Shown: piece after piece, positions 4,377 through 64,000 of the stretch
Position numbering within the stretch: the first letter of the stretch is position 1
Layout of the letters: each line of letters begins with the position of its first letter
NCBI GenBank assembly: GCA_964023275.1
Contig: OZ029927.1
Location: forward strand, 22,830,980-22,894,979
DNA: 64,000 nucleotides
DNA from: Norana najaformis
Lineage: Eukaryota > Annelida > Clitellata > Crassiclitellata > Hormogastridae
Reading direction: 5' to 3'
The notes under the pieces: model-generated
Told to the model about the DNA's origin: nothing
Database searches by the model: none
Seen by the model: only the letters and a program-made list of their open reading frames with translations
Position numbers and translations under genes: made by a program

Positions 4377-5456
4377 GTTTTAAGCCTTTGCCTGAATTTG
4401 CTCCTACCATCACGTACTCATCTGTATCACATCTCGCCTCTGTAATTGGAGACAGTGTTATAATGAAGTGCTTCTTTTCAGCAAAGTTCGTCAATTTTCA
4501 CTCTACCGCTTGGAATAAATATTTTCTCGGCTCTACTGGATTAGTTTCTGAATTTTGTGCCCCATTTTATTATAAAAATACAGGCTAATTATAAACGACA
4601 ACTTGGAATTCATTAATAACTTTTTGGTTAAGATTATTTTCTAAAGTGCGTTATTATTACTGTTAATAGTGGTTATAAAACTGTTGATGATAATTTTGAA
4701 TATCAGTTAGCTTACAATAAATCTTACCTTTTAAATCAATTTACAACTAAAAACAGTGGCTGCTTGACATGGAATATTTAACCTGAATACCACTTACATT
4801 TGGCTGTTTAATGCTCAATTTTACATATCATGGCTCGGGCAAAATTTTAAATGACGCAGCCAGAAATCTGTTGGGGTTAACTGTGAACGCATGATTGCGT
4901 TGTTGAGTCAGCAGAATAAGCATGCGTTTCATTGTAATTTTCCACGACGTCATAACGATGTCATCTCAGTTCAGCATGCTGACCACTAGACCATAGCGCA
5001 CCTCTCTCATAAATTTATATTTATATAAGGACCACCATGTACAGAACAATAATTCTTTACATAATGACAATTTACAAAGTTCAGTCGTCTTCTGTACTCC
5101 ATCACCTTTGCAATTTTTCAGCTATCATAATTTTCAACTTTGAGGGCTTAAAGTGATGGGTGATTCGTATTTATAAATGGCTTTCAGTTTGCAATGCCTA
5201 ATCTTGTTTGTACAATGACAGTAGTGACGATATTCCTTATTATTGCACCTCTGCCATTGTTTCTTCAGGCCGTTGCCTGAGATCAGATGGAAAGGACCAA
5301 GGTATTATGGTAGACACAATATCTCTGCTTTCGGAACGGAACTTACCATTTCTAACATAACCGAATCTGACGAAGGAATCTACAGTTGCACTGCTTCATC
5401 CAACATTCAAAATTCAACATTCATCATTCAACAGAGTCTTCTTGTTTGGGTTGGAA
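4377..5456 (+). CDS. gene 1 Ig3 domain (two exons)
   Basis: Exon 4377-4485 (phase 1 in, phase 2 out) gives the first half with VIGDSVIMKCFFSA. Exon 5269-5456 gives PEIRWKG, then ESDEGIYSCTASS, the D-x-G-x-Y-x-C signature. The split inside the domain matches genes 2 and 3 exactly. The first donor, gttcgt, aligns with gtaagt in the paralogues, so it has diverged and may splice poorly. An open run-on past it to 4588 has no Ig features. The loop NIQNSTFIIQQ holds an N-glycosylation sequon. Confidence 0.75.
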
Positions 5457-8400
5457 GTATGTCTAAACCTGGTGCTGTATTTCTTGCAATCATTTTGCAC
5501 AATTTTGTAGAAGTAGGGCCAACACAGTTAAATCCATAAATAATCAGACATTTGGACTTCAATTGGAAACACCATGTCGTAATATTCGGCCAATTCTTGT
5601 CACTTTAAACCGAACACAACAAAAAATTGACTACTTCATATCTAACCTGAATTGCTATGTTACAGTAATCTTCACCCGACCGAAATTATAGTTTACGGTA
5701 TCATTTGATGTAGATTACAAAATCATCGATATAAGCATGCGTACGTTTGAACTTTAAATTATGGCTTTCCAAGGCATATCTGTATATCTGCCTAAGTATC
5801 AATCGATTAGTTTGTATATCTATATTGCCAATTTAATTCCATTATCCTAGATAAAATCTAATACTGGAATTTCAAGTGGTTCATAATTTCTTGACTTTGA
5901 ACAAAAGAATAAGAGTAAATTGCAGAAATCACCTCATTATCAATACATTGCAAACTAAGGCACACAATCTGACTCAGTGCACGTTTGACCATTAAGATCT
6001 ACAGCCATAATCTGTTTTCTGAGATTGCCATGTGATATTTTGGCCACAAGCTTGTCTAGGACAGCTAACATTGAGTTCCCCTCATTATCAATCAATTTGA
6101 AATAAGTCACGCCAGTGTTTTTAATGTTGGCAGATCTAACTATCAACAGAATAGCAATAGGAACAAATAGGGTTATGGCTTTGAATTTCCACATCTTTCC
6201 ACGTTGTTATCATGCTACTATTCTCCTTTTCTACATCAGTGTTAGTCCTGTTTTACAGCTGAGCCTAAGTTCATCCGACAGTCTGATGGTCCACACAATA
6301 TTAATGTGACAGAAGGCGAGTCCGTTACGTTCAACTGCAGCGCATATGCCAAACCAGAAGCTGATGTTGTCTGGCTCCAGAATGGACTACTAATAGACGG
6401 TAAAACACAAGCAACGTTGATTTAAAATACAATACTGCATTATGAGGTTCTGATTGGCATGTATGATGACTGAGGAATGGATACAATGCAGGTGGCGCTT
6501 CTGGCGTTTATTCGCCGACGTGGCTTTCTGATCGGATTATTGGTGTGCTGGTATCAAATTCATAGGGCAGCAGCCTCTGACGAATCAGGGTTGTACTGAA
6601 AGAAGTGTTTGTTTGTGAGTCCTGCGATGCGAATGTGTCGCCAGCGAACACAAATCTCTTTTTAGGGTATGGTGGCGAGCGGTGCTACTGATATGGTTTA
6701 ATCTTCGGGGGACTTTAGCCTTTAACAGCACGCGGGTTCTTGAATGGATCCGTTCGACCGTACAGAGACGTAACGACGATTATTTCTTTCACACGTATAT
6801 TACAAATATATACAACGTATATACAGCAACTTCAGCAAAATCAGAGTCTTCGATTTGCGTCGGCCTATTAATCTAGCGTGGCTGTTTAAGAGATACAGTT
6901 TCACTATTTTTATTCTGTTCTCCGGAACCTAACACCTCTTTCGACCGTTGTTTAGCGAATGCCTTCTTCGCTTCGCACCCTTCCTTAACTTTCCCCTTCA
7001 TCTGTCAATCATCCAACTTCTCCCTTTCGCCATCCAATCAACGTCTCTCTCTCTCTCTCACTCGTTTACCTCTACCTCTCAATCACGGGCGTCATCTCCG
7101 CCTCGCGTTGATGATAGCTTCGCCTAACTGTTCCCAGTGTTCCGTACAAATTAATTACACAAACACATAAGCTAAATAATCTGACATAATACGATCTACA
7201 ATATGCAAAAACCTAAAATCCTCATTGTTTTCCAAATTTTAACTACAAGGGTGTACTGCAATACTAGCAAATTTCGCAATTTTAAGCCATCAGAAAGATA
7301 GGTAGCGGGGGCCGAAATCTGCTGGAAAAAGTTAGTCTTGAATCTTGATAATCGTAGAATCGTTCACTCGAAAATTTTTAAACACTCTTTAAAGCTAAGC
7401 GTAGGTACCAATTAATTTTTAAGCGCTGCGTCAAGGCAGAAGGCATAGATATCATATGAAGTGGTAGATGAAGTGAAGATTGGGTTCGTAATGGTAATCT
7501 AATTCTAAACTTGAGATTCCTACAGCGCCCAACGAAAGCTAAGTCATGGGAACCAGGTTTTTCACAGGCGCTCAGGCGAAAAAAATCGAAAGGCAGGAAA
7601 GGTCAGAGTCGGTTGCAGCTCAAGATCCAAAACTCAGGCAGGCAGACATTCAGAAGGCCACGGTGGATGGTACTTGGAAATGGAGCGAAAAAAGCCATGA
7701 GAAGAGGAAGATTCATGATAGGATTGGTAGAAGAGGAGTTTTTCAGTTTATGAGTGAAAGACCTGCACAGAGATTGCAAAGGGTGAAGTGTTGGTGAGTT
7801 TGTAATTGTCGTAATTCTGGCGGGAGTTTATTTGGGTTGGGGATTGCCGGAAGGAAAGAGAGGGAAGGACACAAAGGAACTGTTACGGTGCGTTCTATCT
7901 AGGTTGAGAGAAATGGAAAGACAGAGTAATGTATGGATCAGAGTATGTCCTCAGTATTGAATGAAAAGCATGTGAAGTGTTAAATATAGGGGCGTAAGAC
8001 AGATAATTCTGTCGGACTACCTTAAAGCTACGTTACATTATTTTATAACTACACGATAAAGATAAGCTAATTGTCATGCATAATTATTATGGTGCTTCCT
8101 AGACCTGCCTTGATAAGTCCCTTCAGACCTCGTCAATTAGTCTTAATTATTTAAAATATCGAAGGCAAACTCAGCAAAGCAGATTCGTATCGTTTCAATA
8201 ACAAGTACAAATGATATGGTTATGTTTTTGATAGTCAATAGAGCTCCCCATAGATTTGCGTTCAGCAACGATAAGAAAAGTCTGACAATCAGAGACATCT
8301 GTAGAGACTGCAAGGACCGATGGAGGCAGACGGACCTGATGGTTATTCAATGCTATGTAAGCAACGTTCACGGATGTGCCCTTGCTTCGGGATACCTGAA

Positions 8401-10232
8401 CGTTCTACGTAAGTAAACCAGGCATTGTTGCCGCAATTTTGGTAACTCATAACCTAAGCCAAAACAAGAGCAAGTTGTTGGCCTGTGTATTCCTGTTAAA
8501 CTTTAAAGCGCAAGAAGTTAGAGTTGTCTTGTATCGATGCTTAGGACATTGTGCGAATTTTGTCGATACAATACATTTAAAGTGCAATAATATTTTAAAG
8601 AATATATTACTCAAAAATAGCTGCCTAAGTGAACTCGGTTCGAAATGTTTTAAATTGTTGTACGGAAGTTGAATACGATGATATTCTAAATCACAAAAAA
8701 GGATGTAAACGAATAATGAATGGTAGCAAGTAAGGCTTTCAATGAGCTTCTTTTAACGGGGCGGGGTAGAAAACCGAATTCCTTCTTTTGGACTTTTCAT
8801 CTGGCTTACTTCTATTCATTTATGTGGATTGGTCGTTGCCAGTAATAAGTCTTCACGTAATTAAGGCGTCATTTTTCCCAGCACGTCTACCTCAGAACGT
8901 TTTCAAGCTGTCTGCCTTCTACAAACGTTACCAGCACTCAGTCGATATTTGGTGCGCCAAACCAGAACGTTATTCGGTTCCCGGTCTCTGGAATTCGCTA
9001 CATTTGTCTATCCGCTCTGTTCATTGTATGTCTGAAGTCTCGCTCTTTCTGAGAGTTCATCAGCCGTAGCTTGACATCCATCCACTGGAGCCTCGTTGAT
9101 GCGACTGGTTCTGTTCAATGGATTGTTATTTCGAAGTATTTTTCCCTAGAAGCGACCATCGACTTGTGGCTTAGACTAGACTGGAATAGATCATCGTAAT
9201 CCTCGTCATCATCATTGTCATTATTTTGTTTCTAGGTAGGACAAAAGTGTCGCTTCCTGGTTCAACCTCCGTATTAGTTAATCTTACAACGTCAAGTCAG
9301 TTCCATTTTGACTGCAGTGCAACGTCTGATCCGAGCACACCTCCAACAGTTCAATGGTACAGGATTGGACCTCACGGCCAGGAATCTGTTCAGAATGTGC
9401 CCCCATATGTCTATGTAATGAACGACATCTTAACCATAAACACTTATTCAAACTGCTCCACTACATGTGATAAATATCTCGGAGAATACAGGTGCGTTGC
9501 TGACAGTGGATACAGCCGAGACGTTGCAACAGTGACACTCTATGTCAAAAGTAAGCATTGTTTCAGACAATTTCAGGTAAATATGAATCTGAGTTCGTCA
9601 CGTTGTTCTGTTGCTTTACAGATACGCCTGAAAGAAAAAACACCACATTTCTAATCAATATTTCGTTTTATGAAAGTAACTTTTGTATTGCCTACAAACG
9701 ATGTACTAATTAGAAATTTAATGGTTACCTTGACCTGAAAATCAATTTGTGCGGTACGGTGATCTATCGGTAACGGGTTTGGTCATTAATCATGCGGTTG
9801 CGGGTTCGACTCAGTGTAACGATCCTGTTGTTTGCCATATCGTGTCCCTGTTAAGCAGTATAATTTGGACCCAGCGCATGCTGGGCAGTAAACGGCAAGT
9901 TCTGTGATGTACTGGCCTCGTGTACAGGACATTGGGATTCGTCCATTATTGGTTCAAGGGCCTAAAGAAAATGAAATGAGCGCCTCCCCTATGTCTCACT
10001 TGTGGAATATGGAATACTTTACTTTAAAAAGAAGATCAAGAAAACCATCGCATCTCTAATTGCCCAGATGAAGTAGTTTAAGACAGTGTGTTCGGTAACC
10101 CGGGCAACGCGGACACTGCAAAAAATCCAAGTGAACCATCAGCGGCCACGAGTTAACCGCAAGGACAGCTGACAGTTATGGTTGGTTGACATTTGGCCGC
10201 TCTACTAGTAATTATATAATAGCATAACAAGA

Positions 10233-10307
<75 letters not shown>

Positions 10308-13300
10308 CAGAAAATCCAAGTGAACCATCAGCGGACAAGAGTGAACTGCAAGGACAGCCATATTGTTGATATTTGACCGCCCTAATAGTAATATATATAT
10401 ATATATATATATTACTCTTGTTATTACTATTAGTATAATTACTATTAGTATAATTACTATTAGTGCGGTCAAACGTCAACCATCCTGTCAACTATCCTGG
10501 CAGTTCACTCTTGGCCGCTGATGGTTCACTTGGATTTTCTTGCAGTGTCCGCGTTGGCCGGGCTACCGAACACACTACACTGTCTTTAATTACGTCATCT
10601 GCTGAGGTCTTACCCGTGAAGGCTTTCCTGCAATTAAGGAACCGGCCTTTCTGTCCAGACCGATGACAAAAGACTTGATGGTCTTTCTTAGATGCAATAA
10701 TGGTAGGGTACTAGTTTGACTTTGAACGTAACAGAAACAGATACCGTGGCTCCTTGTTACTTATACCTGCAACCTCTACACTGCTCGGAGCTGCATCAAA
10801 ATTGGCAGCTACCAGGAAAAACACCAAATACAAATACTTCAAATTTAGCACTTTTTCAACTGCTTTTCGAAACTTTGGGACCCATCGACATCACTGCAGT
10901 CGCTTTCCTTTCCCTATTAAAAATGGGCCAGTACCTAGCTCATTTTCTGGAAATTACAACGACTAGTTTAAAAAATCCAATCCTACTTTTTAATGCAGTC
11001 GTCTTCCGCAACATTTTTGCACTTTCAGATTTTGACGAGGCCCAGCCTCTCCAGATATTATCTTGTAACCAGCGCACATATTTGGAATCCCATGTCATCA
11101 GAGCTACCTTGGTTTAGCCTACAAGATTATTAATATATAATTATAGTTGCGTTTAATTCTGTTTCGCAGTGAAGATAAAAGTGGAGATTAGAGGCTCAAA
11201 AAACGTATCAGTTGACTTTCTGGAAGAAAAGCAGTTCGTCTTTCAGTGTCATGTAACTTCTGTTCCGAGTACACCTCCGACGGTGCGTTGGTACAAGGTA
11301 CAACCGTATGGTGACTTAGTTCGTGATGAGCCGCCTTACGTCTATGCCACAAAGGATATCTTGGTCATAATGATTTATCCAAACTGCTCTTCTTTTTGCT
11401 CTAAATACCTCGGAGAATACAGGTGCATTGGTGACAATGGATACAGCCAAGACAATAGCACGATTACTCTTACCTTTAAGCCTCCAACAGGTGAACCCAT
11501 TAAAAGCAAATGGTATTTATTATAAATGTGACGCTATCATTCGGTTTAACACTAGACAACTCCTGACATTAAATGAAAGATTTAGAGTAGTAATTGAACA
11601 TTCACAGATAGATATTTATAAAAGAAGGATAAAAACTTCTCAAGCTTTACTTTGCTTAGTTACGCTAAGTAAAGTATCAAAATTTATGAATAGCCATCAA
11701 GTGCCAGATATATGTTATATTTATAAAGGAATAAAATTTCAAACTCCTGTTTTGTTTAGTTGTCTCAAAAGTCATTTTGGAATTTTTGCGTTGCGGTAAA
11801 TATCTTTTACAGACGCTGTCAAGGAGAACGAAGTGTGGAAGATAATTCCAGGAGTCGGAGCTGTTGTCCTATTTCTGTTTCTCATCGGAGTTTTCTTTGG
11901 CTTCTGTCGGAAGCGATACTTTGGTGGTAAAGATGCAATTGCGTTTTAATTTTTACAAGGTCCTAGTAGAGATAGCAGGAAGGACACTTGCACCGGGCCT
12001 CAACATCTTTTGTACCTAGAATATTTTGTATATGAGTATCTGGACATTTTTAGCGCCTTTTAAGGTCATTTGTCTTGATCTGATTATGTAACTTACAAGA
12101 AAAGGTTGTGCTTTTTTGAATTAATGCTGTGGTGGTGAAAGGTCTGTAAACACCAGGACAAAAGGTTTTATAAATGTTGTGGACGCAGTGGATGTAACTA
12201 TAACATATAGCTAAGCAATATGTAGAGATAAAATGAACTCTATTCGCTAAGTAGATATTAATTACAGCATGATTGCTATGAATATGTGTAGTATATAGGC
12301 CTAGGCAGAGTCAGGCGTTATGTAGATTTATGTCCCTATGTCTTTAAGGATACATCTGGCATATGCAATGATCCCCAGTCGCCTAGATTTTTGTAACTCG
12401 CTTCTTTAAGATGTCACATAGTTAAACCTGCAGAATTTGTAGATAGTTAAGAACTCTGCAGCTAAAGTCATAACAGATACATCACGATATGAACATATAA
12501 CACCTTTACTTAAATCCTATTCAGCAAAGGAGTTTCAAATTGGAGCTTATAGTTCATGAAACATGAAATTGTGGCCGACCACAGTACTTTGAATAATTCC
12601 TTATTTTCCTGCTTTATCAGTTTTCAGCTAGGTCGTCTGATTGTCTTTCTCTACTTATTTAAAAACCAGAGCTTTTCGTGGTGATGGTTCTCTCGGTTAC
12701 TGGTTCTCGATTTCGGAACACTGCTCCGTCTCCCATGTCAACTCGGTCTCGGTGTACTCCCTTACCTCACTATAGACTTCCTTCCTGTTTCAATGGACTC
12801 ACCTTCTGTGTACTGACCGCCCTAGAGCTTGGTTTGGGATGCTTTCTGCGTTAGACATTGGCGTTAAAACTTGCTAAGTATTAGTTTGTATTGCTGTTTT
12901 TATTAAACTGAATTTTAAATCCTTTATAACCTAAATTAGACAGTAAATTCTAATAGTAAATAATGATTCCGTCGCCTATATTATTTTACATTTTAGAAGC
13001 GAACAGACGAACCAAAGAAAGGAGATTGCCCAATCTTCCTAGCATGTACGAGCGTGTAGACTATGATGCAGTAGCTCAGCCTCTGGAAGCAGAAGGAAAC
13101 AATGAAGGATCGATGCCACGAGCATGCAGCATGTATGAACACATAGGTTATGATTCTATTGATCAGGTACTCGAAGAAATGGCAAACAGAGAAAGAGCGA
13201 TGCCGCAATCTCCTGGTGTCCATGAATTCAACAGATATGAGTCAACAGATGCGCCACAGAAAGAAAAGACAAACACAGGTAGACGGATGCTCGATGAAGA

Positions 13301-14898
13301 TACCATGTATGACCTCATGGGGTATGCAATACTTCTGGAAGAAATCAAAAATCGCAGGAAAATAGACCAACTTGATCACTTAAGAAATTCGGATAAGAGT
13401 CCAAAAGAAGTGACTCTCAACTTGGATTTGGTTTCAAACGAATTGAATCCTTACTTGAATTTGGTTTCGAACGAAGTGAATCCCTACTTGGATCTGAGCC
13501 CGAAAGAAGAGAATCCCTACTTGGACCTGGTTTCGAAAGATGTCAATCCTTACTTGGATCTGGATCCGAAAGAAGTGAATCCCTACTTGGATCTGAACCC
13601 GAAAGAAGTTAATCCCTACTTGGACCTGGTTTCAAAAGAAGTGAATCCCTACTTGGATCTGGTTTCGAAGGAAATGAATCCCTACTTGGATATGGGTCCA
13701 AAACAAGTGAATCCCTACTTGGATATGGCTCCCAAAGAAATGAATCCCTACTTGGATATGGGTCCAAAACAAGTGAATCCCTACTTGGATATGGCTCCCA
13801 AAGAAATGAATGCCTACTTGGATATGGGTCCGAAAGAAGCGAATCCCTACTGAATCTGGTTCCAAAAGAAGTGAATCCGTATTTGGAAGTGTGTAAGAAG
13901 TAGATCCGAACTTGAATCTAGGTCGGGAAGATGTTGATCCCCACTTTTCTCTTACTCTAGCTAGACACGGTCTTTACGCCACGTGTACAACCTTTCGTGA
14001 AGCGGATCATCTGGTTCTCAAGAACTAGCAAGTCACATTAGCATTTTAATGTTAGCATCCCGACTAACCATTATGTAGCCATTTGTTGTCGTCCCCGAAT
14101 ACGGCGTCTGTAAAGCTCTGCTTCGTAATTAATGCATACATGTACGAAAGCATGCATGGTGTATACATGCAAGGAGATCTGTATGTATGTAAGTATGTAT
14201 GCACCCGCGCTCAGATAATTAGGCTACATGTTGTCGGTATCCCTTTAAAAGGAGGTGTCTGAATGCCGTCCAAAACACAAAATCCGAGACCATCACTAAG
14301 AATAACAGGACTACGGTGTGCTGATTTGGACAAAGAAGTATAGCGAACGCACAAGCAGAGCTTCGTATAAATTAAATGTGCCGTCTAAACTGAACAAGGC
14401 GTTAGACGGCCGCACAATCATGCATCATCGGTTGACGCCTTGTGCATAAAAACACCGGCGCAATAAAAGTTTCTAATTAATAACTACGCCGTAGCAGATC
14501 CAAAGTTTAACCTCCGATAAAATTTTGCTGACGTTCAACGAATCACGGGTTCTATGTATTTACCTTTAATACTCTGCTTTTCAGCTGCCAAGAAACGGAA
14601 AGCTATCTCCAAAGATACGGCGATGATCCATCCTAACACCCTTTACGAAGACATCGGATATGATTCAATTGATGTGTCACGGGGAAATGTCGTGAACATG
14701 GAAAATCCAGTGCCTCAGGCAGGTAGTAGGCCTATATACGAACACGTGGGATATGATTCAGTAGATGTGACTCAAGAAGAAGCCAAAACTTCAGCGAAAA
14801 TAAACCAGTTCACTGAGAAATCAAAAGAAGTGAATCCGTACATGGACCTGGCTCCAGATCCCGTTCCTCCACCAATGTATGCGGCTTTACGTACTTAA
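4377..14898 (+). CDS. receptor gene 1: L1CAM-like Ig receptor with tyrosine-motif array tail (5' end missing)
   Basis: A single-pass surface receptor. Exons by my splicing: 4377-4485, 5269-5456, 6259-6399, 8235-8408, 9236-9550, 11170-11490, 11813-11926, then either 12997-13853 (tail A) or 14585-14898 (tail B). They join in one frame: 738 visible residues with tail A, 557 with tail B. Order: Ig3 and Ig4 (L1CAM/neurofascin-type halves), two IgX domains, one TM helix, cytoplasmic tail. No FnIII repeats are seen, unlike true L1CAM. Signal peptide, Ig1 and Ig2 were not found upstream and may lie beyond the window or be lost. The donor at 4486 (gttcgt) is weak. A ligand or adhesion role with phosphotyrosine signalling is inferred from architecture only. 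Confidence 0.78.
6259..8408 (+). CDS. gene 1 Ig4 domain (two exons)
   Basis: Exon 6259-6399: ESVTFNCSAYAKPEADVVW, ending LLIDG before gtaaaa. Exon 8235-8408: HRFAFSNDKKSLTIRDICRD, then VIQCYVSNVHG and GYLNVL. The second half closely follows L1CAM/neurofascin Ig4 (consensus ...QC.a.N.hG.l.a.ayl.V). I set the acceptor at 8234 (gatag) because phase 1 is needed; an upstream cag at 8182 would give the wrong phase. An extra CRDC pair sits near the tip. The intron between the halves holds LINE debris (7340-7770). Confidence 0.78.
7340..7770 (-). mobile_element. two LINE 3' fragments of the ATTACG-tailed family
   Basis: On the minus strand 7770-7490 shows the family's 3' block (GATCTTGAGCTGCAACCGAC, a CTTTCGTTGGGCGCTGTAG-like piece, then the tail). 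A second, older end lies at 7430-7340. Both are in the gene 1 intron between the two Ig4 exons. The coding-looking frames across 7511-7797 are by-products of this repeat. Confidence 0.6.
8780..9080 (+). mobile_element. LINE RT C-terminal fragment in gene 1 intron
   Basis: Translation contains PGLWNSLHLSIR, the C-terminal signature shared by L2/CR1/Jockey-type reverse transcriptases. The related fragment at 51640-51740 (gene 3, before the same IgX exon) indicates that the insertion came before the duplication that made the two genes. Confidence 0.6.
9236..9550 (+). CDS. gene 1 first IgX domain
   Basis: One whole Ig domain in one exon with phase-1 borders. [19 protein letters not shown] resembles L1CAM Ig6 (C-x-A-S-x-D-P-S pattern), and GEYRCVADSGYSRD gives the second core cysteine. 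A second cysteine pair (NCSTTC) sits directly before KYLGEYRC. The same exon, with alignable flanking introns, occurs in gene 3 at 52008-52322. Confidence 0.85.
9750..10025 (+). mobile_element. SINE-A, tRNA-derived, near full length
   Basis: A tRNA-like head with A-box-like GTGATCTATCGGTAACGG and B-box GCGGGTTCGACTC, a body with AAGCAGTATAATTTGG and CACTTGTGGAATATGG, and an A/T-rich tail. A second copy is at 22855-23065 and a fragment at 3890-3975. Confidence 0.65.
10082..10584. mobile_element. fold-back MITE with TTTAA target duplication
   Basis: Arms of about 130-150 bases (10082-10215 and 10430-10584) are inverted copies, starting GACAGTGTG and ending CACTGTC. TTTAA flanks it at 10077-10081 and 10585-10589. 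The centre holds a (TA)n run (10237-10306) and a third partial arm copy (about 10306-10400). There is no coding capacity. It sits in the gene 1 intron between the two IgX exons. The TTAA-type target suggests mobilisation by a piggyBac-like transposase, which is inference. Confidence 0.75.
10237..10306. repeat. (TA)n microsatellite
   Basis: About 35 TA units in the centre of the fold-back element; a shorter run lies at 10390-10412. Open frames of alternating Ile/Tyr across it are not genes. Confidence 0.95.
11170..11490 (+). CDS. gene 1 second IgX domain
   Basis: A diverged tandem copy of the previous exon: [55 protein letters not shown]. Phase 1 in and out, so it can be added or skipped without frame change. 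It leads into the TM exon through a short linker (TFKPPTG). Confidence 0.85.
11813..11926 (+). CDS. gene 1 transmembrane exon
   Basis: Encodes AVKENEVWKIIPGVG, a hydrophobic stretch VVLFLFLIGVFFGF of about 22 residues with its start, and a CRKRYF stop-transfer cluster. This orients the following exons to the cytoplasm. Phase 1 out, compatible with both tail exons. Confidence 0.85.
12997..13853 (+). CDS. gene 1 terminal exon A: cytoplasmic tail with tandem NPYLDL array
   Basis: 285 codons. The first part has SMYERVDYDAV, SMYEHIGYDSID and TMYDLMGY. From about 13400 the exon is a tandem array of 33-base, 11-residue units: NPYLDL followed by VSKEV, SPKEE, DPKEV or, later, NPYLDM followed by GPKQV or APKEM. 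About 12 units carry the tyrosine. Successive YLDL motifs are separated by seven residues, the spacing of ITAMs (YxxL x6-8 YxxL); YLDM fits PI3K p85 SH2 sites. The TGA at 13851 falls inside a unit and recognisable array continues to about 13900, so a one-base loss shortened the array. An alternative role as YxxPhi endocytic signals is possible. Confidence 0.85.
13400..13900 (+). repeat. 33-bp coding minisatellite
   Basis: Head-to-tail copies of a unit containing AATCCCTACTTGGATCTGG. Copies toward the 3' end form a higher-order two-unit repeat (GPKQV/APKEM alternate twice), the mark of recent unequal exchange. The last copies lie after the stop codon. Copy number is likely variable between individuals. 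Confidence 0.9.
14462..14467 (+). promoter_or_regulatory. candidate poly(A) signal for tail A transcripts
   Basis: AATAAA about 610 bases after the tail A stop and just before exon B. Its place between the two terminal exons fits use by the tail A form. Inferred from position only. Confidence 0.35.
14585..14898 (+). CDS. gene 1 terminal exon B: short alternative cytoplasmic tail
   Basis: 104 codons after a clean ctgcttttcag acceptor, phase 1, the same phase as exon A. It carries TLYEDIGYDSID and PIYEHVGYDSVD, homologous to the motifs in exon A, and a single KEVNPYMDLAP, followed by a proline-rich end (PVPPPMYAALRT) and TAA. Since exon A ends in its own stop, B must be an alternative last exon of the same gene or the tail of a lost neighbour. 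B looks like the unexpanded version of A. Confidence 0.75.
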
Positions 14899-20100: not shown

Positions 20101-23100
20101 TAGACTAGTAGGCGTAACTAAATAATTAAGTGCACTGCAATTAAACTCGCGACACGACCACGCCACCTGTTTGTTTCCGTCGGCTATAGACCCGGCCTTG
20201 ATTAGGACATACCCTTGCTTGTCTGCGATGAAAGACCAGCTCTGCGTATTTTTATTTCTGCCAGCTCACTAATGACGATGTATTAATTTCAGGAAATTCA
20301 CGTGACAAGGATGCATCAGACTGTTTATTTCGCTAGTTGTTAGGACAAAAATTACCGCATAGAGGGGAATAGTAGCCATTATAAAAAACACAGTATTTAC
20401 TTTCACCCAGCCTCAGAAATGTTTGGTGTGATCTTGCGGTTCAAATCTTACATACTAAAGGTTTTTAAATTAGTTACAGTGTATTCGCAAGACCTTATTA
20501 TTATTATTGTTGTTGTTGCTGCTGCTGATGATGCTGATGATGATGTTGTTGTTAATTAACTAATTAATTAAAAATTTATGTAGCACTAATTCAAGACGCA
20601 GTCAGATAAGTATCCAGAAAGTCAGCCCACTGAAACAGAGAGGAAGCCAATGCAAAGATTTAAGTACAAGGGTTATATGTTCATATCTTTACCTATCAGT
20701 TATGGCTGCTCTATCCCAAAAGTCTTGAAGTCTTAAGTCTCTGAATGTTTGACGATGTGATACCGGTATGAAGCGAGTTACAGTAACCAAGGCGACTGGA
20801 AACCAATGCATTTTCCAGAGATATCCTTGAAGACCTCGAGACATAACACCTAATTCTGGATATTACTAATTCGCATGTATATTTGTAACATAGTATGATC
20901 CTAACTTACTAAAATGTAACCCAAGAGTAAATGTGGATTTAGCTGAAGAAATGTTTCTCGTCCTTACAGATACACGTGGACTAGGAACGGCGTTGAAATA
21001 AAAGGACACACAAATACATATCAGCCATACATAGATATATCTGAGGCAACACCAGATCACGCGGGATTCTATCAATGTGCTGCTACTAACCCATACGGTA
21101 CAGTTCTCTCAGATAAGTCGCATGTCCAACTGGCCAATATCAAAGAACTGGTACAACGACATCAGAAACAAGTTGAAAAGATAACGGTTACGGAGGGGCG
21201 GCCATTTTCAATTTCCGCTCCTCGAATTCAAAGTGTCCCCAAGTCAGAGGTTTGGTGGTTTGCCTCGGATGACTGCGAAGAAATAAAAGGTACAATTTCA
21301 GGACTTGTACGACGGACAAAACGAATTCAGAAGACGGCAAACGGTAAAATTCTCAGAAATTCGTGTTATTCTCTCAATCTAATAATTTATCACTTGCTAG
21401 TAATAAAATCTAAACTCCCGAACGTCAACTTGCGGCGCATTGAGTGCAGGTGGGTTGTTCATCTTCTTGCGTCAATACACGAATCGGGAAAAACTCAGAT
21501 TAGGCTTTTCTATCATTTTGTATACTTATTTTTGTGTGGGACACGGTAGTCGATTGGTTAGAGCGCTCGGCTTTTAACGTGAAGATTATGGGTTCGAGCC
21601 TCCTTCCCTGAGACAGTTACTTTGATCAAGTCAGTCACTCACAGTTGCTTAGTGCTATCGATTGATGTTGAGTCACTAGATAGTGACGCTTAATAAACGA
21701 AAAAAATTCAGCGCTCCACAAAGGCTTCCCGAGCGAGGCTAGCTCATTTTGACGGCGCTAAATGAATAGTTATTGGCTATCGCGCATACGAGAAAATATG
21801 AGAAAAAGTTCTTTAAATTTACACATAATTTATACTTAGTATATGCCGAGACTCGTCAAGATATTTACTGCCTAGTCTTGATCTCAGTGGATTTCGACCA
21901 CGGCACTGAATCTAATCCAACAACCTTCCCCACACTCCACTAGGGAAATGAGGACCTTACTTTGCCATCGATTGATGCCTTGTGCTTTAGAGAACGGCGC
22001 TATCGAAGTTACAATTTATAATGCATCGCATAATCAGCATGTCTTAGTCGTTAGACAGAGGCGTTTATAAATGCAGAAATAAATTAAATCACTACCATTA
22101 TATTCTTTTCAGGGGATCTATACTTTGCTTATGCAGTACAGGAGGACGATTTCATGTGTTACCAGCCGGTACTTTCAAACTATTTTATGCCTTATGCTGT
22201 GGGCAATTTCACTACTATAACGGTGATAAGAGGTAAGCTGCCTTATTTTAGTTGTAATTATATTTACAAATTCTTATAGCACTTCTTTAAAAGAAATTCA
22301 TCAGAAGCGCTCTGACAACGGATTATGAATCTCTACTATGAATGATCTCAGTTCAAGCGATCATTGAATGATGTCTTGAAAATTATGTTAACGGCGCCAT
22401 AAAAGTCATTAGACCAGATAAGATCATCAATAGATTTGATGTCTATAGCAATTAGATTAGATTAGATAGAACTGATCTAGTGTAACCGGGTGTGATCTGA
22501 TCAAATCTAATGTAACAACTCAAATAGCGTCGTCATCGTATTGCACGATGGATCGTGAAACGCACAAGGCGTTCTTAATACTAATCGTCAATTTTTATAG
22601 ATTAAAAAAGTGGCTAAACAGTAGCTTTGGATGAATCAGTACAAGCTGGAATATATATGTATTGATATAACGCCAATTCAGAAATGGCCAAGTATCAGTA
22701 GATGCAGCTAATCAATTATGCACGAACGACTTACTAAAGGAGCAGTCACGAAAGCTGAAGGCTGTAGCCCGTACTCTCAGCCTTACGAGGAGAACCCTCA
22801 GATGTAATTTTGAAGGCTTACATTGCACAACAAGACATTACACGACTCCGTGTAAAGACCCCGGGCAAGTTGTTTGTCCACACCGTGCCTCTGCCACCAA
22901 GCAGTATAATTTGGTACCGAAGTAAGCTGTGAAGTAAACGAAAGTCCTGAGATGCACTGGCCCCGTGTCCAGGGAAATTAGGATTCGCCCATTGCCGGCT
23001 CAAGGCCTAGGAAAGAAAATGGGCGCCTCACCCACGCCTCATTTGCGGGATATGGGAAGCTTTACTTTTCACACAACATTATATTTAATTACTACAAATC

Positions 23101-23547
23101 CTTGTACTTGGATTACATGCTTGCGTTACTATATAATTTCACATTACATATATTGTTGCATTACAGTTGATGGCAATTCGCTCCAATCGGAGCCAACACT
23201 CAGACATTTCGACGCACCAAGTGTAGCTCTTATCGGGAGAAATGCGTCCTTCAGATGCATATTTTCAGGATAGTAAGTGAAATTTTGCTATTTCATAAAT
23301 GACCTTCCTTCTCTTTCTCTCAACAAGAAAAACTAGTAAATGACTGTTTTGATGATTAATTTAGCAACAAAATGTCTACAAATTTAATCTTCTTTCTTCT
23401 ATTCCTTGTACTGTTTTGCACTTAGTCTTCCTGACAGCTCTCGTAAGTATGAGATATACGACTTTTGGTTGATATTGACTTGGTGCGTATGCATGCATGC
23501 TTGCATGGATGTATGTATGCATGTTTATATATATGTATGTATGTATG

Positions 23548-23579
<32 letters not shown>

Positions 23580-26500
23580 CATGTATATATGTATGTATGT
23601 ATATATATATGTATGTGTACATATATATTGCGCCAAGTGTGTATGCGTGTATGTATGTATGAATGTATGTATATATGTATGTATGTATGCGGTTGCATAT
23701 TTCTAGTCCCGATCCATCTATATCCTGGACCGGGCCAAGCAATCCAAGTTCCACTCCGAGACATCAGCTGAAATTGAATGAAACTCAGCTATTCATTGTC
23801 TACGTTGAAGCATCGGACGAAGGAAAATACAGCTGCGCTGCGTCGAACTCTGAAGGCAGCGTTGGACAGGATTTTCACGTACGCGTTGAAGGTTAATTCT
23901 TCACTTCTACGCCTGTTCGTAGTTAAATTAATATTATTACTTGAAATTCTGTGAGTTACCTTTCACCTCGGAGAGAGTCACTTTCATTGGATCCATTGCC
24001 TGTATTTCCTTTGCAATCGATAGCAACTGAACACTTGCTACAGATGCCAAGATGGCCCGATCAAAGTGGACGTCTGAAACACGTGCGCATGTGGTGAGCG
24101 TTAGCATAGTAATTTGAGTGGCAATAAGTTTAGATAAGGTTGACGTCAATTGACCTGGTATCCATAACATGTCGTTAGACACTGGATACTCGCCAGTTTT
24201 TGCAGTTCTTCTAACACATATTACGTGTCTTTGAAACCACTTAAAACCCAAGTTATGTTTATATGCTGTTAAAGGCTGTGCTGGAATCTATTTCCAATGC
24301 ATTGCACACATCGGCATCTACGCCTACCAGCAACTATTTAACGACTTGCTTAGTAATTATTTCTTCCCTTGCTGGTCTTCACATCGGATAAAACAGCTTC
24401 TCCACTCACCTCTGTTCGTCGCCAGTCCTTTAATCTCATTCCACGACATCTCCAGACATTCCTCTTTCACAGATCCTATCCTGACACCCTTTCTTCCTCT
24501 TATCTCTCTCTCCTCTCCAACCCCAAACACCATCCCCATGGCTGCCACGCTGTCTCCATCTGACTTTTGGATCTTGACCTGGAACCGAACCCTTTTGCCT
24601 ATCGATTTTGTTTTGACTGAGCGCCTGTGAATAAGCTTGTCCCCGCGACGTGGCTTTCGTTGGGCGCTGTAGAAATTTCGGAATTACGATTACGATTACG
24701 ATCTCAGGTTATCTCTGCTGGTCTCTTATTTACAAGGTTTCAGATTTTACCAGGAAGTTTCACCTTATCTCAGAGACCATCCATCGTGGCCGTCTGCTTG
24801 ACTGCCTTCCCGACCTTTGGATGTGGACATGGAACCGAACCTGACTATACCTCCCCCAACGATTTTTGTATTGAACTTAGAGCCTGTGGATAAGATGGTT
24901 TCCGAGACTTAGCTGTTTTTGGTCTTTGAAAATATATGGAGATTACGATTACTTTCCACTACAAATGGCCTCATGTATGACAACATTCGTGTAGAAAAAT
25001 AAGCTCTGATCACTAACCTTTGGCTAAGTTAGCATGTTGGTTGTGGTTGTTTTTTACAGCTGTGCCCTCATTCAAACAGATATCCGACCGTCCACACAAT
25101 ATCGATGCTATAGAGGGCAGCACTGTCACTTTCGTATGCAACCCCCATGCCAAACCTGAAGCCTTGATCGGCTGGTTTCACAATGGAAAACTAATAGACG
25201 GTAAAGCACAGGACCAGACAAAAACAATGGTCTCTAGACTTCCAAATTCAGAATTGATGAACGTAAACGATCAGGATTAAGTAATCCATGTGGTGAACTT
25301 TGTTGGATGACTTCCACATGTTCGATATTGTGCTAGCACATGCCATCAAGAAACTTGAAAATCAACTGTAGATCTGTAAAAATTTGCTTATACCTCTGAC
25401 AGTCACACCTGCCCTTAACCTTAAATCTGCAAAACAGGATAATCTGGTTAATTCACGCTTCCGCGCTTTAACAGTGCAACTTGATAGCTTCGCCGTTGTC
25501 AGCCCTTCATAACTGAAGAGACTGTCATGAAACCTGCGATAGGAGCTTCTTGTTCTTTTTCTTTCTCCGTTTTGTCAGCGGTGGAAGACTAGTCTATTTG
25601 ATGGTGCTAATTAGACTTAGCACTCCGCATTACAAGATGTGCATTCATTCGGCCACACTGATTCTGTCTCATGGTGATGTTATTACTAGATCTGTATGTA
25701 TTAAGCGCCACTACCTAACGAAAATGCATCAATCGATGGCATTGAACAGTCGTGCGTGAAGTTCTTCCTCAGTAAGTTTCTTATGGAAGGCTCGGACCCG
25801 TACACAACGCGTACAAGACGAGCTTTCAACCAATCGGATACGGCCTCGCATGCGTATCACTGAGGCGACTCATATTGCATCAATGTATGCCTATTGTAAA
25901 TTTGTAATGTAATATAAATTTCTCATTGCTACGCAAAAGCTGTCTCAGGGACATCAGCTTTCTCACCAGCGTCAGATGAAATCAAGTCCGGAAGAGAAAG
26001 TTTAAGGCGAACAACTGGTTGTTCTGATCTTTCAGTTAACGATCCTCCCAGAAGATTTGAAATCTCTGACAGCAAGAAAAGGCTGACTATCCATTACATT
26101 TGTCGAAAATGCACAGACCGGGAAAGTGAAACGGACTTCATGGTTATTCAGTGCAATGCGAGCAACGTCCACGGATACGCCTTTGTCTCCGGATACCTAA
26201 ATGTGGTCGGCAAGTACTCTTTAAATATTCTACTGATGCTTAATACTAAGTTATGATAATCTGCATAAATATAATTCTCAGAGGCGAAGAATCTGGATGG
26301 CAGGATATTTGGCTAAAGCACAATCACGACAGTGGTATTGAACAGCCGTTCTCCAATAATTGCAAAATGCAAAGAAAAGTGAACAATTCACCATTACTAT
26401 TTTTTATTTATCAATTGCATTATCTACGTGCACAAGGTTAGTAAATCGGAATCTAAGGCACAAGACAGTTGCCTGAGAACAACTTGTCCAGGGAAACTTG

Positions 26501-28549
26501 CAAAGAAAAGAGAACAATTCACCATTACTATTTTTTATTTATCAATTGCATTATTTACGTGCACAAGGTTAGTAAATCGGAATCTAAGGCACAAGACAGT
26601 TGCCTGAGAACAACTTGTCCAGGGAAACTTGCAAAGAAAAGAGAACAATTCACCATTACTATTTTTTATTTATCAATTGCATTATTTACGTGCACAAGGT
26701 TAGTAAATCGGAATCTAAGGCACAAGACAGTTGCCTGAGAACAACTTGTCCAGGGAAACTTGCAAAGAAAAGAGAACAATTCACCATTACTATTTTTTAT
26801 TTATCAATTGCATTATTTACGTGCACAAGGTTAGTAAATCTGATTCTAAGGCACAAGACAGTTGCCTGAGAACAACTTGTCCAGGGTCGTGACAAGGATT
26901 CCGCTCACCATCCCGAACTGTTAACTATTTCAGACTATCACTCACTGAAGATACATTTCCCCATATATTTGTTCCTGGCACAAGTCTCCAACACTTGTAC
27001 ATACCATAAAATGTACGCTATTTACAACGTGCGTAACTTGGCACAAACATACATCATTGATTCAGAAACATTATAATCGTGATACAATGTTAACCCTAAA
27101 CATGTGATTTCTAACCGCAGATGTTGCGGATTTTGCTCCACGCTAAACCTGAATGTTATGCATTCTGTTTTGTAACAGCAGAACCTACGTGCAAGGGGGC
27201 ATGGCTTGTTGATTGGTGGATCGTTCTGGTTTCTTCCGTGTCCATTGGTGTCCTGCTTTTCTTCGTTGGACTCTGGATTGGATTGCGGTGTAAACAGTGC
27301 AACAAATATCGGGGTAAGCTTAAACTTTATGTCTGCAGTTTAGGATATGTCTAGTTAGTTGTCGTTAACGTTCGACCTCAAGATGATATTGCAACAGTAT
27401 AGAGTACAACGAATACTTTTGATGACGAGAATTCTTTTATCTCAACGACTTTTTCCTGTGTTTCACTGGAGCCGCACAAGAAACTTAGACCCCTAGCGAA
27501 AGCCGATTTAGTTAATCTTATAGAAAAGCAAAACGGAGAACAGCAATATTCTTTTTGTGTTTGTACCCCCACGGTGGTCTAGTCGGAGCGCTCTGGCCTA
27601 TTCAGCGATTTTGATTTCGAACCTATTGAGTGGACTCCATGTAATCATAGCCAATGTAATCATAGCCATAGCTGCCCCACGCCTCTGGAATAAGCTCCCG
27701 CCAGAATTGCGGCAGTTGTCTGGTCCATCATACAAACTCACCAACACTTCAACTCTTTCAGTTTCTGCGCAGGTCTTTCACTCAAGACTGAAAACACTTC
27801 TTTTCCAAAAATCTTATCCTGATTCTTCCTCTTCCCCTTATCTCTCTTCTCGCTTCAATTTCAAACATCATCCACTGTAGCTGTCCGACTGTCTGACTGC
27901 CTGAATCTTGGATCTTGACCGGAACCGAACCCTTTTGCCTATGGATTTTATTTTGACTGAGCACCTGTGAATAAGATGGTTGCCTCGACTTAGCTTTCGT
28001 TGGGCTCTGTAGAAATTTCGAGATTACGATTGCAATTACGATTAATGACCCTGGCGCGTCAGATTCATATTTTCTGGTCAGGCGCACGTAACATGTGCAA
28101 TGATTCTTGTTGTATTCTTATGTTTCTTAATGTTTCCCGTTTCCAGGCTTCCAAGTGCACTAATTAACTTTTTAAGGAGACATTGCAAAATTTCAGCTGT
28201 ATTATTTTATAGCATATAAATTAGCAATAAATACTTTCTTTCAGTCATCGAGAGACGAAATCAAATCGAATGCAGGAGGAGGAATAACGCAGACAGTTTG
28301 TACGAGTTCGTCCGAGATGAAACATTCAACCTGCAACCGGTTGGAACATCTGTCACTCGACCTGTGCTCCACACCAGCTTCATTGAACCGCAGTCAGCCC
28401 GTCCTTTGGTTCGTCTTCCTGAAGAATCTGAGCAGCCAGGACCAGAGGGTCACTACTACACACAGATGAACGAGAGGTCACCATCCGTCAGCGGATCAGA
28501 TGGTTACGCACCAGTGAAGCAACCCTATTATCTTATGCTCGCCGATTAA
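17011..28549 (+). CDS. receptor gene 2: L1CAM-like Ig1-Ig4 receptor with short tyrosine-motif tail (complete)
   Basis: A single-pass surface receptor, complete in ten exons: 17011-17125, 19310-19415, 20970-21343, 22113-22232, 23167-23272, 23707-23891, 25060-25200, 25940-26209, 27182-27313, 28245-28549. All phases agree and the frame closes at TAA. Three in-frame ATGs (17011, 17050, 17059) are possible; 17059 gives the neatest signal peptide and 601 residues, 17011 gives 617. Order: signal peptide, Ig1-Ig4, TM at about residues 467-490, tail of about 100 residues. The domains follow L1CAM/neurofascin Ig1-Ig4 but lack Ig5, Ig6 and FnIII. The last Ig4 exon uses a GC donor (ggcaagt). A recognition or adhesion role with phosphotyrosine signalling is inferred. 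Confidence 0.82.
17825..18130. mobile_element. possible tRNA-derived SINE remnants
   Basis: The minus strand at about 17850-17815 has a B-box-like GGGTTCGAATCAAGG, and the plus strand at 18030 has AGGTTCGAAGCCG. No full tRNA head is recognisable, so these are old and uncertain. Confidence 0.3.
18205..18440 (-). mobile_element. ATTACG-tailed LINE 3' fragment
   Basis: Minus-strand copy of the family 3' block (GATCTTCAACTAGAACCGAT, CCTATCGATTTTGTTTCGAC), closing with TCGTAATC-type material at its left. Intron 1 of gene 2. Confidence 0.65.
18960..19215 (+). mobile_element. ATTACG-tailed LINE 3' fragment
   Basis: Plus-strand copy ending AAGAAATTTCAAGATTACGA with TTACGAATAC, just before gene 2 exon 2. 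It contains an internal palindromic-looking duplication of CACCGCACAGT / TGTGCGGTGG. Confidence 0.65.
19310..21115 (+). CDS. gene 2 Ig1 domain
   Basis: Exon 19310-19415 has QLPPSITRSP and IDLRCEAEGSPAV. This matches the start of L1CAM-family Ig1 (PP.IT.Q.P... CEA.G.P). Exon 20970-21343 continues YTWTRNGVEIKG and HAGFYQCAATNPYGTVLS, also an L1-family signature (G.YQC.A.N..GTA.S). The mid-domain split is phase 2, as in gene 3. Confidence 0.88.
21116..22232 (+). CDS. gene 2 Ig2 domain, core disulfide missing
   Basis: The rest of exon 20970-21343 plus exon 22113-22232. EGRPFSISAPRI replaces the usual cysteine-bearing strand, then KSEVWWFASD. NGDLYFAYAVQEDDFMCYQ matches the L1CAM Ig2 'DGNLYFSNV...D...C' block. 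The first core cysteine is absent, so the domain cannot form the standard bridge. Confidence 0.8.
21538..21730 (+). mobile_element. SINE-B, tRNA-Lys-like head
   Basis: The head reads like a tRNA: GATTGGTTAGAGCG (A box), CTTTTAA anticodon loop (TTT), GGGTTCGAGCCT (B box). The anticodon stem does not pair, and a body follows that ends TAGATAGTGACGCTTAATA. Minus-strand copies at 25636-25850 and 39395-39565 share the end. Not a functional tRNA gene. Confidence 0.65.
22855..23065 (+). mobile_element. SINE-A copy, 5'-truncated
   Basis: Matches 9830-10025: AAGCAGTATAATTTGG, a block around GATTCGCCCATTG, then a CATTTGCGGGATATGG end. Lies 100 bases before the gene 2 Ig3 exon. Confidence 0.65.
23167..23891 (+). 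CDS. gene 2 Ig3 domain
   Basis: Exon 23167-23272 has VALIGRNASFRCIFSG; exon 23707-23891 has PDPSISWTGP and EASDEGKYSCAASNSEGS, followed by FHVRVEG. Both core cysteines and the tryptophan are present. The 434-base intron between them contains a (GTAT)n tract. Confidence 0.88.
23485..23695. repeat. (GTAT)n microsatellite
   Basis: About 200 bases of ATGT/GTAT units with interruptions, inside the intron that splits Ig3 of gene 2. It stays open in most frames on both strands; those open frames are artefacts. Confidence 0.95.
24390..24960 (+). mobile_element. two tandem ATTACG-tailed LINE 3' fragments
   Basis: 24390-24705 and 24715-24960 each end in GATTACGATTACG-like tails. Both contain the TGACTTTTGGATCTTGACC / CCTTTGGATGTGGACATGG block followed by GGAACCGAACC. 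The first copy retains a little RT C-terminus. Head-to-tail arrangement suggests insertion of one into the tail of the other. Confidence 0.7.
25060..26209 (+). CDS. gene 2 Ig4 domain
   Basis: Exon 25060-25200 has EGSTVTFVCNPHAKPEA and GWFHNGKLIDG. Exon 25940-26209 starts with an extra serine-rich stretch of about 35 residues not seen in the paralogues, then [33 protein letters not shown]. Splicing leaves the exon by GC (ggcaagt). The extra stretch depends on the weak acceptor at 25939. Confidence 0.8.
25636..25850 (-). mobile_element. SINE-B copy
   Basis: The minus strand shows CCGATTGGTTGAAAGCTCG (A-box region), CTTGTAC loop, CGGGTCCGAGCC (B box), then the family body ending TAGGTAGTGGCGCTTAATA. 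In the intron between the two Ig4 exons of gene 2. Confidence 0.65.
26370..26888 (+). repeat. 131-bp tandem repeat, four copies
   Basis: Nearly identical 131-base units containing CACCATTACTATTTTTTATT and AGTTGCCTGAGAACAACTTG, at about 26370, 26502, 26633 and 26764. It lies in the gene 2 intron between the last Ig4 exon and the TM exon, where genes 1 and 3 have IgX exons. The frames are open across units (repeated METHIONINE-initiated 89-residue shadows) but have no splice logic, so I read it as noncoding. Confidence 0.92.
27182..27313 (+). CDS. gene 2 transmembrane exon
   Basis: PTCKGAWLVDWWIVLV opens the helix, which continues SSVSIGVLLFFVGLWIGL and ends at RCKQCNKYR. Phase 1 in and out, like the gene 1 TM exon, but with no sequence similarity to it beyond hydrophobicity. 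Confidence 0.88.
27566..28045 (+). mobile_element. tRNA-like head plus ATTACG-tailed LINE 3' end
   Basis: 27570-27635 resembles a tRNA-derived head (GGTCTAGTCGGAGCGCTC, B-box-like TTTCGAACCTA). 27650-28045 is the best-preserved 3' end of the ATTACG family: APRLWNKLPPELRQLS, then a K-T-L-L-F block of the RT C-terminus, a 3' UTR, and a GATTACGATTGCAATTACG tail. It may be a LINE-SINE composite or two adjacent insertions. Located between the TM and tail exons of gene 2. Confidence 0.65.
28245..28549 (+). CDS. gene 2 cytoplasmic tail exon
   Basis: 101 codons after a clean ttctttcag acceptor. Tyrosine sites: SLYEFV (fits SxYxxV, ITIM-like), HYYTQM (YxxM, PI3K p85 SH2 type), GYAPV, and a C-terminal PYYLMLAD. 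Proline/glutamate-rich between. No similarity to the gene 1 tails, so the two genes share ectodomain but not output. Confidence 0.85.
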
Positions 28550-33654: not shown

Positions 33655-34105
33655 TATGTATGTATGCATCACTAAAATTTATAAAGCGCCTTTTAAGTAA
33701 CTCACAAAGGCGCTGCAGCACGGCTACCTAACGGTCTCTAAATAGGAACGTCTTGAGACGGGCAGAAAATGTTTCTTGAATTGTTGAACAGGCAAAGGAT
33801 CGGATATCTGGTGGAAGAGTGTTCCAGAGAGACGGCCCCACAGTGGAGAAGGCGCGGCCCGCCCGACCAGACGTACGAGAACGCGGTACAATGAGTTGAC
33901 CTAGAGTTGTTGTACGTTGTATGTTGGCTTTCTGGAACCGTTTTGTCGAGCAGCCGGAAAGACAAACAGACAACCCTCCTCAACCGTATTTGTAACTATG
34001 GAACTCTGTGAGGTGGCATCAGTAAATGCGCTCTGAATATGTGTCGTGTATGAGAGAGCTGTGTCATACCGATTGTTAGCAAAACACTGGTAGAAGCCTT
34101 CGTTC
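33655..34105 (-). mobile_element. L2-type LINE 3' end
   Basis: The minus strand gives AFSTVGPSLWNTLPPDIRSF and then FSARLKTFLF, the RT C-terminus. It ends with AAAGGCGCTTTATAAATTTT and ATACATA units. Confidence 0.75.
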
Positions 34106-34855
34106 ATCTTTGTCTTTGGATTTATTACGTTGCCATCTACACCTTTATTGATCTTAGAAAGATTAAGTTGAGATCATTGCCGTTCATTTTACATAAATGC
34201 TAAAAAATAAAAGAAAATAATTTTGTTTTCTGAGATATTATTATTATTATTCATTACATGAGGTCTAAGAACTTTGCTGCTGACTTAAAGAGCAATAACA
34301 ATATAATTTTTTATTATAGAATTATTACTATTAATTTTGTCTTCATAATAATGATGATGATAATGATGATGATGATGATGACGACGACGACGATGGTGAT
34401 GAAGATGATAACAATAATCTTGAGGAATCAGATGTACCTCGGGTAAAAAATAAAATAATGATAATAAACAGAAAAGTAGTAACGTTTAGCCAAAGGCACA
34501 ACTTGGTTCCGTCATACATATGATCCTCTCTTCACACCGACACTATACAGCCGATGTGCTCATTTTTTAGCTGAGCACACAAACCCGGGGGCACTTGTGT
34601 AACAGCAACTTTCCAATGTCTTATCCCGTCCTTGCTGTGATTTCGCTTGACAGTGAAGGACTCCTAATCACTAAGTAATTGCGCAACCCCATAATAATAA
34701 TAAACAATTCACAAGCAATATAATACATTGCTATTGAAATATCATACACTGCTGTTGATAGTATCAAAGCCTTCGCATTGTGGGCATCCGCCTGCAGGCA
34801 TGCTCTCACTAACGTGCATAGATATGGAGGTTATTGAGTACACCCCGTCTTCCTC

Positions 34856-58909: not shown

Positions 58910-58950
<41 letters not shown>

Positions 58951-63976: not shown

Positions 63977-64000
63977 GCAAGTATTTAATATGCAATGACG

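Follow-up and report, generated by a model that had tools for sequence, protein, structure and literature searches.

Receptors of the immunoglobulin (Ig) superfamily with tyrosine-bearing tails have been described in several invertebrates, and we compare with them a receptor encoded in a 64-kb window of the genome of the annelid Norana najaformis (C15:22830980-22894979, the whole stretch of DNA that was analysed; genome of 608 Mb in 17 contigs), whose predicted cytoplasmic tail carries a tandem array of 11-residue units built around NPYLD[LM]. Its closest counterparts in build appear to be the oyster receptor CgIgIT2 and the clustered receptors Alr and FcoR, and in tail logic the multiple immunoreceptor tyrosine-based activation motifs (ITAMs) of CD3 and the substrate domain of p130Cas. 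According to the accessible text of a review, CgIgIT2 of Crassostrea gigas has five Ig domains, a transmembrane (TM) segment and a classic ITAM, and acts in microbial recognition and ERK signalling (PMC11999971). It resembles the window receptor as an invertebrate Ig receptor with a TM segment and a tyrosine tail and differs from it in that the same text names one ITAM and makes no mention of a tandem array (PMC11999971). FcoR of Botryllus and Alr of Hydractinia are clustered, duplicated Ig receptors whose tails bear immunoreceptor tyrosine-based inhibition motifs (ITIMs), hemITAMs or single Yxx[ILV] sites, and splicing at oligomorphic FcoR loci can swap ITIM and hemITAM, which may have a counterpart in the two tail exons found here; unlike the window receptor, they are not described as having a tandem tail array in the available part of that source, and FcoR ectodomains mix Ig and sushi domains (PMC12065747). 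The T-cell receptor (TCR)-CD3 complex has ten ITAMs and a signal amplified by their multiplicity, akin to the many sites of the window tail (PMC4428620, accessible part). p130Cas likewise has 15 YxxP repeats that are Src-family substrates in a proline-rich disordered stretch, in a scaffold protein and with YxxP rather than YxxL/M (PMC3983058, accessible part). No comparable tandem tail array was found in the literature searched, outside which most subscription papers fell.

Our favoured reading, to which we give a probability of about one half, is that the array-bearing exon (tail-1) gives a type I Ig receptor, one of a large clustered family, a flexible docking strip with many phosphotyrosine sites.

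Gene model of the receptor and its genomic family

All features lie on the forward strand unless stated otherwise. Upstream of tail-1 we recognized seven exons with AG/GT borders, the first intron being in phase 2 and the others in phase 1. Ig exon A1 (4377..4485), placed by frame, phase and homology to exon 46419-46523 of gene C, a same-family neighbour in the window, has a donor, AAA|GTTCGTCA, that looks weak. The Ig exons A2 (5269..5456), A3 (6259..6399), A4 (8235..8408) and A5 (9236..9550) were placed by the joined frame and comparison with gene C, with Pfam Ig_3/I-set matches on the joined protein for A2 and a search of the genome itself for A5. The joined frame and the same genome search identified A6 (11170..11490), the membrane-proximal Ig exon, close copies of which precede tail-1 exons. 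The TM exon A7 (11813..11926; KIIPGVGAVVLFLFLIGVFFGFCRKRYFG) reaches a mean hydropathy of 2.59 over 21 residues, ends on a phase 1 donor and has counterparts preceding tail-1 in the paralogous regions L036-L039. Tail-1 itself (12997..13853, ending in TGA 13851-13853) was delimited by its open frame and an acceptor pattern common to the paralogs. A second tail exon, tail-2 (14585..14898), placed by the joined frame and by paralogs, has the same acceptor phase and contains one KEVNPYMDL and a C-terminal YMDL-x9-YAAL.

Exons A1-A7 together with tail-1 encode an uninterrupted 739 residues, and with tail-2 they encode 558. The ectodomain matches Pfam Ig families, and its best solved-structure matches in the PDB are the Ig chains of contactins, Robo and neurofascin (contactin-1, E 2.1e-25), with best stretches that span part of the ectodomain and with no such match for the tail. 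No signal peptide was identified in the 64-kb window. Ig domains, a TM helix and a tail share one open frame in the genomic sequence, which supports reading exon 12997-13853 as the cytoplasmic part of a type I Ig receptor. The preliminary description had assumed that this exon is joined to a membrane-spanning Ig receptor; the open frame, together with the Ig-TM-tail linkage in paralogs described below, upholds this at the level of genomic linkage and goes a long way towards meeting the concern that the exon is never so joined. Exons A1-A5 compared with gene C gave a ratio of nonsynonymous to synonymous substitution rates (dN/dS) of about 0.32 across 300 codons, suggesting that the ectodomain is under constraint. 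Tail-1 and tail-2 may be alternative or successive cytoplasmic tail exons. Splicing of tail-1 onto tail-2 was considered and rejected, a donor-like GT (13894) being found only past the TGA and in another frame, and the stops in paralogs L004, L007, L009 and L011 favour tail-1 as a last exon.

The genome search with the tail exon, which scores the best candidates only and so gives lower bounds, returned at least 20 rows at E <1e-20, representing 19 loci including that of the window (two rows fall in one locus); one lies on C11 and all the others on C15 between 22.48 and 23.34 Mb. Weak tail rows on other contigs, which match the array portion of the query at 9-41% identity, were set aside as products of the repeat. 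With exon A6 the search gave 54 rows at E 0.001, of which 50 fall between 22.46 and 23.81 Mb on C15. These 50 matches to a single Ig exon, all of them on the forward strand except one, span about 1.35 Mb (C15:22459184-23813322) and mark a predicted large tandem receptor cluster. Linkage was compared between 21 tail places, weaker fragments having been dropped, and 25 of the 54 Ig rows, all those of at least 71% identity included. Among Ig exons at least 71% identical to A6 (the window's included), 12 of 13 have a tail-1 on the same strand 1.4-2.8 kb downstream, and because of this linkage we assign the tail-1 exon to the Ig receptor family; the thirteenth, without a tail, is a partial row (C15:22595463). 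No listed Ig exon lay within 6 kb upstream of 9 of the 21 tail places, one minus-strand tail being outside the comparison. Searched with the window exons, all four paralogous regions L036-L039 showed the order Ig-TM-tail, L039 displaying A1, A2, A3, A4, A6, A7 and tail-1. The acceptor position was identical in 15 of 16 tail exons compared (the L028 anchor was misplaced and L010 left out). Tail-2-type exons form a second, smaller set with the splice position of tail-1 and related C-termini. The lone strong family match on another chromosome, L004 (C11:3273498-3277340), has a long tail open to the conserved end.

Tandem array and tyrosine motifs of the tail

Tandem Repeats Finder reported a 33-bp array at 13400-13887 (14.8 copies, 81% matches, score 563). 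In the frame of the tail-1 exon, repeat search, translation and unit listing place an 11-residue array at 13431..13853, with 12 full units and a thirteenth that reads NPY-stop and with the consensus x-[PS]-K-E-V-N-P-Y-L-D-[LM]. Other frames are partly open by virtue of the 33-bp period; homology, splice phase and paralogs single out the one used. The full units (k=0..11) comprise one NPYLNL, six NPYLDL, four NPYLDM and one NAYLDM, so that the dozen NPYLDL/M motifs announced in the preliminary description hold as a count of units, while NPYLD[LM] proper occurs ten times. Its spacing of seven residues between YLDL motifs was exact, the 13 array tyrosines lying 11 residues apart throughout; since the repeat period dictates this spacing, it counts as one event and not as 11. 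The repeats of p130Cas are not known to follow a fixed period. The residue at +3 of the tyrosine is L in seven units and M in five, and the latter agree, as a pattern, with the proposal that later units are YxxM sites of the PI3K p85 type (six YxxM in tail-1, five of them within the array, and none in tail-2).

Six of the 12 adjacent pairs fit Yxx[LI]-x7-Yxx[LI], or 11 if M is allowed, and one fits the strict form [DE]xxYxx[LI]x7Yxx[LI], starting from unit 2 (KEENPYLDL, E codon at 13509). The earlier statement that every adjacent pair is ITAM-like thus holds for half of the pairs in relaxed form and for one in strict form, and the acidic residue then said to be absent at -3 is indeed missing from most units but present in unit 2. 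When the residues of the unit were randomly permuted and each permuted unit was repeated in tandem, 20.5% of the permutations also reached at least 10 relaxed ITAM pairs. In 11 tails, the window's included, a relaxed pair was found in nine and a strict pair in only two. The tail could act as a canonical ITAM amplifier, each adjacent pair recruiting a Syk-family kinase and output rising with unit number, as the x7 spacing, the relaxed pairs and the one strict pair would allow and as ITAM multiplicity amplifies signals in mammalian TCRs (PMC4428620, accessible part). We regard this as unlikely: an acidic -3 residue in a single unit, M at +3 in five units, the rarity of strict pairs among the tails and a conserved C-terminal pair spaced x9, beyond the 6-8 range, all speak against it, and a Syk-type gene is not established in this genome. 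No strict kinase catalytic pattern occurred in the 9.9-kb stretches beside 11 SH2 pairs, a result that does not exclude a Syk-type kinase. The ITAMs of TCR-CD3, unlike the window array, are spread over several chains and follow a strict consensus. The array may work like an ITAM strip, and on its overall failure to fit the strict consensus we do not class it as one.

Between the membrane and the array lie two double-tyrosine modules located by translation and motif search, YERVDYDAVA (13047..13076) and YEHIGYDSID (13134..13163), the second, also from paralog comparison, within the best conserved block of the tail (SMYEHIGYDSIDQ), every column of which is kept in at least 10 of 11 paralogous tails. 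Shuffling of the pre-array stretch gave a mean of 0.001 modules against the two observed. The module sequence Y[DE]x[IV] resembles the preference of the Src SH2 domain. The ITIM pattern [ILVS]xYxx[LVI] has four matches in tail-1 and two in tail-2, and by eye the four in tail-1 are the module tyrosines. It is conceivable, if doubtful, that the tail is inhibitory or of dual sign, with the conserved SMYE[HR][IV] and GYDSI serving as ITIMs for SHP-2-type phosphatases and the array adding sites: SHP-2-like SH2 exons are present in the genome (C8:26.29 and C15:17.80 Mb), whereas the array tyrosines, with N at -2, do not fit the pattern. Because the best-conserved tail tyrosines fit the ITIM pattern and look Src-SH2-like, an activating sign cannot be assumed for the predicted tail.

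The tail matched no Pfam family above cut-off, and NPxY sites for phosphotyrosine-binding domains were rejected, with no match. A structural, apolipoprotein-like amphipathic 11-mer helix comes to mind from weak similarity to PDB sequences of apolipoproteins A-IV (E 0.0039) and A-I (E 0.028) and from the helical moments of three consensus units, which rank in the top 5.8%, 19.4% and 3.9% among permuted units. Such a helix is highly improbable, as there are 20 prolines in 139 residues and the matches are low and repeat-driven.

Conservation among paralogs and possible function

In the predicted family tail three parts can be told apart, namely the membrane-proximal double-tyrosine modules, the array and a C-terminal pair, and the first and last are better conserved than the array tyrosines. 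The module Y[DE]xxxY[DE]x[IVL] occurs in eight of nine database homologs, the exception, P0002, having a frame that begins later. Where the C-terminus could be read (11 loci and P0009), the YxxL-x9-YxxL pair keeps the distal Yxx[LI] in 11 of 12, the proximal one in nine and both in eight. Array length ranges from about 2 to 13 units among paralogs, so that copy number does vary, and the scaling of signal strength with it in the preliminary description is a hypothesis; the window array is the longest unbroken run among the tails read, and L004 has nine tyrosines 11 residues apart and seven relaxed ITAM pairs (six in the window), in units such as VSKEVNPYMDL.

Of the four positions that played no part in picking paralogous units, the tyrosine is retained most often (70/105, a low estimate, as the picker also takes some stretches outside the array), followed by P at -1 (61/105). 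In 57 units of database homologs, registered by hand with irregular units omitted, the counts were Y 35, E at -4 46, N at -2 42 and P at -1 17. The tyrosine is missing from about a third of units, and the array tyrosines as the key conserved feature are not supported. Since P at -1 is kept in so few of the database-homolog units, NPY is probably not the conserved core. This bears on a further, very unlikely explanation, in which the unphosphorylated tail is endocytic or actin-linked, with YxxPhi motifs (18 matches in tail-1) bound by AP-2 or NPY (12 matches) by I-BAR proteins. ELM lists an NPY-I-BAR class, the human instances of which are unvalidated according to the accessible text (PMC7145657). 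The scarcity of P at -1 in the database homologs counts against this explanation, though the paralogs keep it more often, and the double-tyrosine modules are left unexplained.

The main rival of the docking strip would be a coding minisatellite with little function per copy, in which slippage adds and removes tolerated units, signalling is confined to the modules and the C-terminal pair, and extra units contribute little or nothing. We hold this to be a genuine possibility, if a somewhat unlikely one. It would account for the range of unit number, for the decay of tyrosines, for the frameshifted 3' end of the window tail and the stops in several paralogous arrays, and for the almost exact 66-bp duplication that relates units 8-9 to units 10-11. 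Against it stand the frame and 11-residue register kept over 12 units in the window and over the nine tyrosines of L004, the rank of the tyrosine among the positions not used for picking, and the maintenance of Yxx[LM] in separately homogenized arrays, itself weakly evidenced. Differences within and between arrays were 8.5 and 11.0 in L001, 3.9 and 9.2 in L018, and 10.6 and 11.8 in L004; units are clearly more alike within the array in L001, L018 and L020, barely so in L004, where 3 of 13 units have their nearest neighbour in the same array, and not so in L005, L007, L008, L009, L011 or L012, so separate homogenization of each array is suggested by weak evidence and is not well shown.

That weakness is one of several points that weigh against a docking strip, as do the counts of retained tyrosines given above. 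All 12 window units use the same codons for N, Y and L(+1), silent sites included, and recent duplication therefore explains their invariance as well as selection does. The proportions of nonsynonymous (pN) and synonymous (pS) differences contrast NPYLD (pN 0.027, pS 0.227) with the linker (pN 0.266, pS 0.426) in the window units, a contrast that rests on few events and has limited weight. Constraint on the pre-array tail is weak (dN/dS about 0.6 over 55 pairs), and a search with the joined Ig5-Ig6-TM-tail protein retrieved no protein at E 0.01. Stops occur in several paralogous tails: the frame stays open as far as the conserved end in L004, L007, L009 and L011, but not in L002, L003, L005, L008, L010 or L012. 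In the window, too, the tail is apparently truncated, by a frameshift inside the array, comparison of units suggesting that a one-base loss brings in the TGA at 13851-13853. Past it, in two other frames (13854..14028), about three more, increasingly degenerate units and the former C-terminus continue to about 14028, identified by homology to P0004, whose C-terminus aligns with 13897-14025 (35% identity; E 0.001 when only the window was searched), and the two share the ending LVLKN-stop.

If tail-1 is nevertheless a docking strip, ligand-driven clustering of the receptor would lead a Src-family kinase to phosphorylate the tail. Its SH2 domain might rest on the YE[HD]I-type modules while the kinase phosphorylates the NPYLDL/M sites serially, and the phosphorylated array would then hold several SH2 proteins side by side. 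SH2 domains of the PLC-gamma type prefer YLDL and those of PI3K p85 prefer YLDM, and the two kinds of unit could be their respective sites; relaxed ITAM pairs could be read by a tandem-SH2 protein such as a Syk-type kinase or SHP-2. The proximal half of the tail-2 C-terminal pair, KEVNPYMDLAP, is itself an array unit, which suggests to us that an older YxxL-x9-YxxL pair, still kept in tail-2 exons, gave rise to the array when its KEVNPY[LM]DL half was duplicated in tandem. Array length would then have drifted from gene to gene, leaving paralogs with different numbers of sites.

A bolder and improbable extension is that the family sets signal gain genetically: duplication of half an ITAM-like pair would have given about 2 to 13 phosphotyrosine sites per paralog, the two tail exons would be interchangeable, and gain and sign would evolve by slippage and exon choice, not by new adaptors. 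If the units are docking sites, the paralogs form a natural series of receptors differing in site number in which signal could be tested against multiplicity, a question studied in altered TCRs (PMC4428620, accessible part) and chimeric antigen receptors, and the cluster would be one of recognition receptors that changes its intracellular output through minisatellite slippage.

Other features of the window

Gene B (20947-28549) is an Ig paralog whose tail, short and of another kind (SLYEFVRDETFNLQP...YAPVKQPYYLMLAD), has no Pfam match; one of its introns contains four copies of a 131-bp unit (26368-26886, 98% matching). In gene C (about 45300-64000) the same-family Ig exons are followed by GAIN and secretin-family seven-transmembrane pieces, joined by eye, and gene C may on this reading be an adhesion G-protein-coupled receptor-like gene of the same cluster, with Ig exons common to two receptor classes. 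An Ig fragment on the minus strand (33946-34164), similar to the first Ig exon of genes B and C, is probably a relic. An open frame at 36822-37217 has a sub-threshold match to DDE_Tnp_1_7, and a minus-strand stretch at about 1-2200 looks PiggyBac-like by eye. A 39-bp minisatellite of 7.6 copies lies at 59450-59745.

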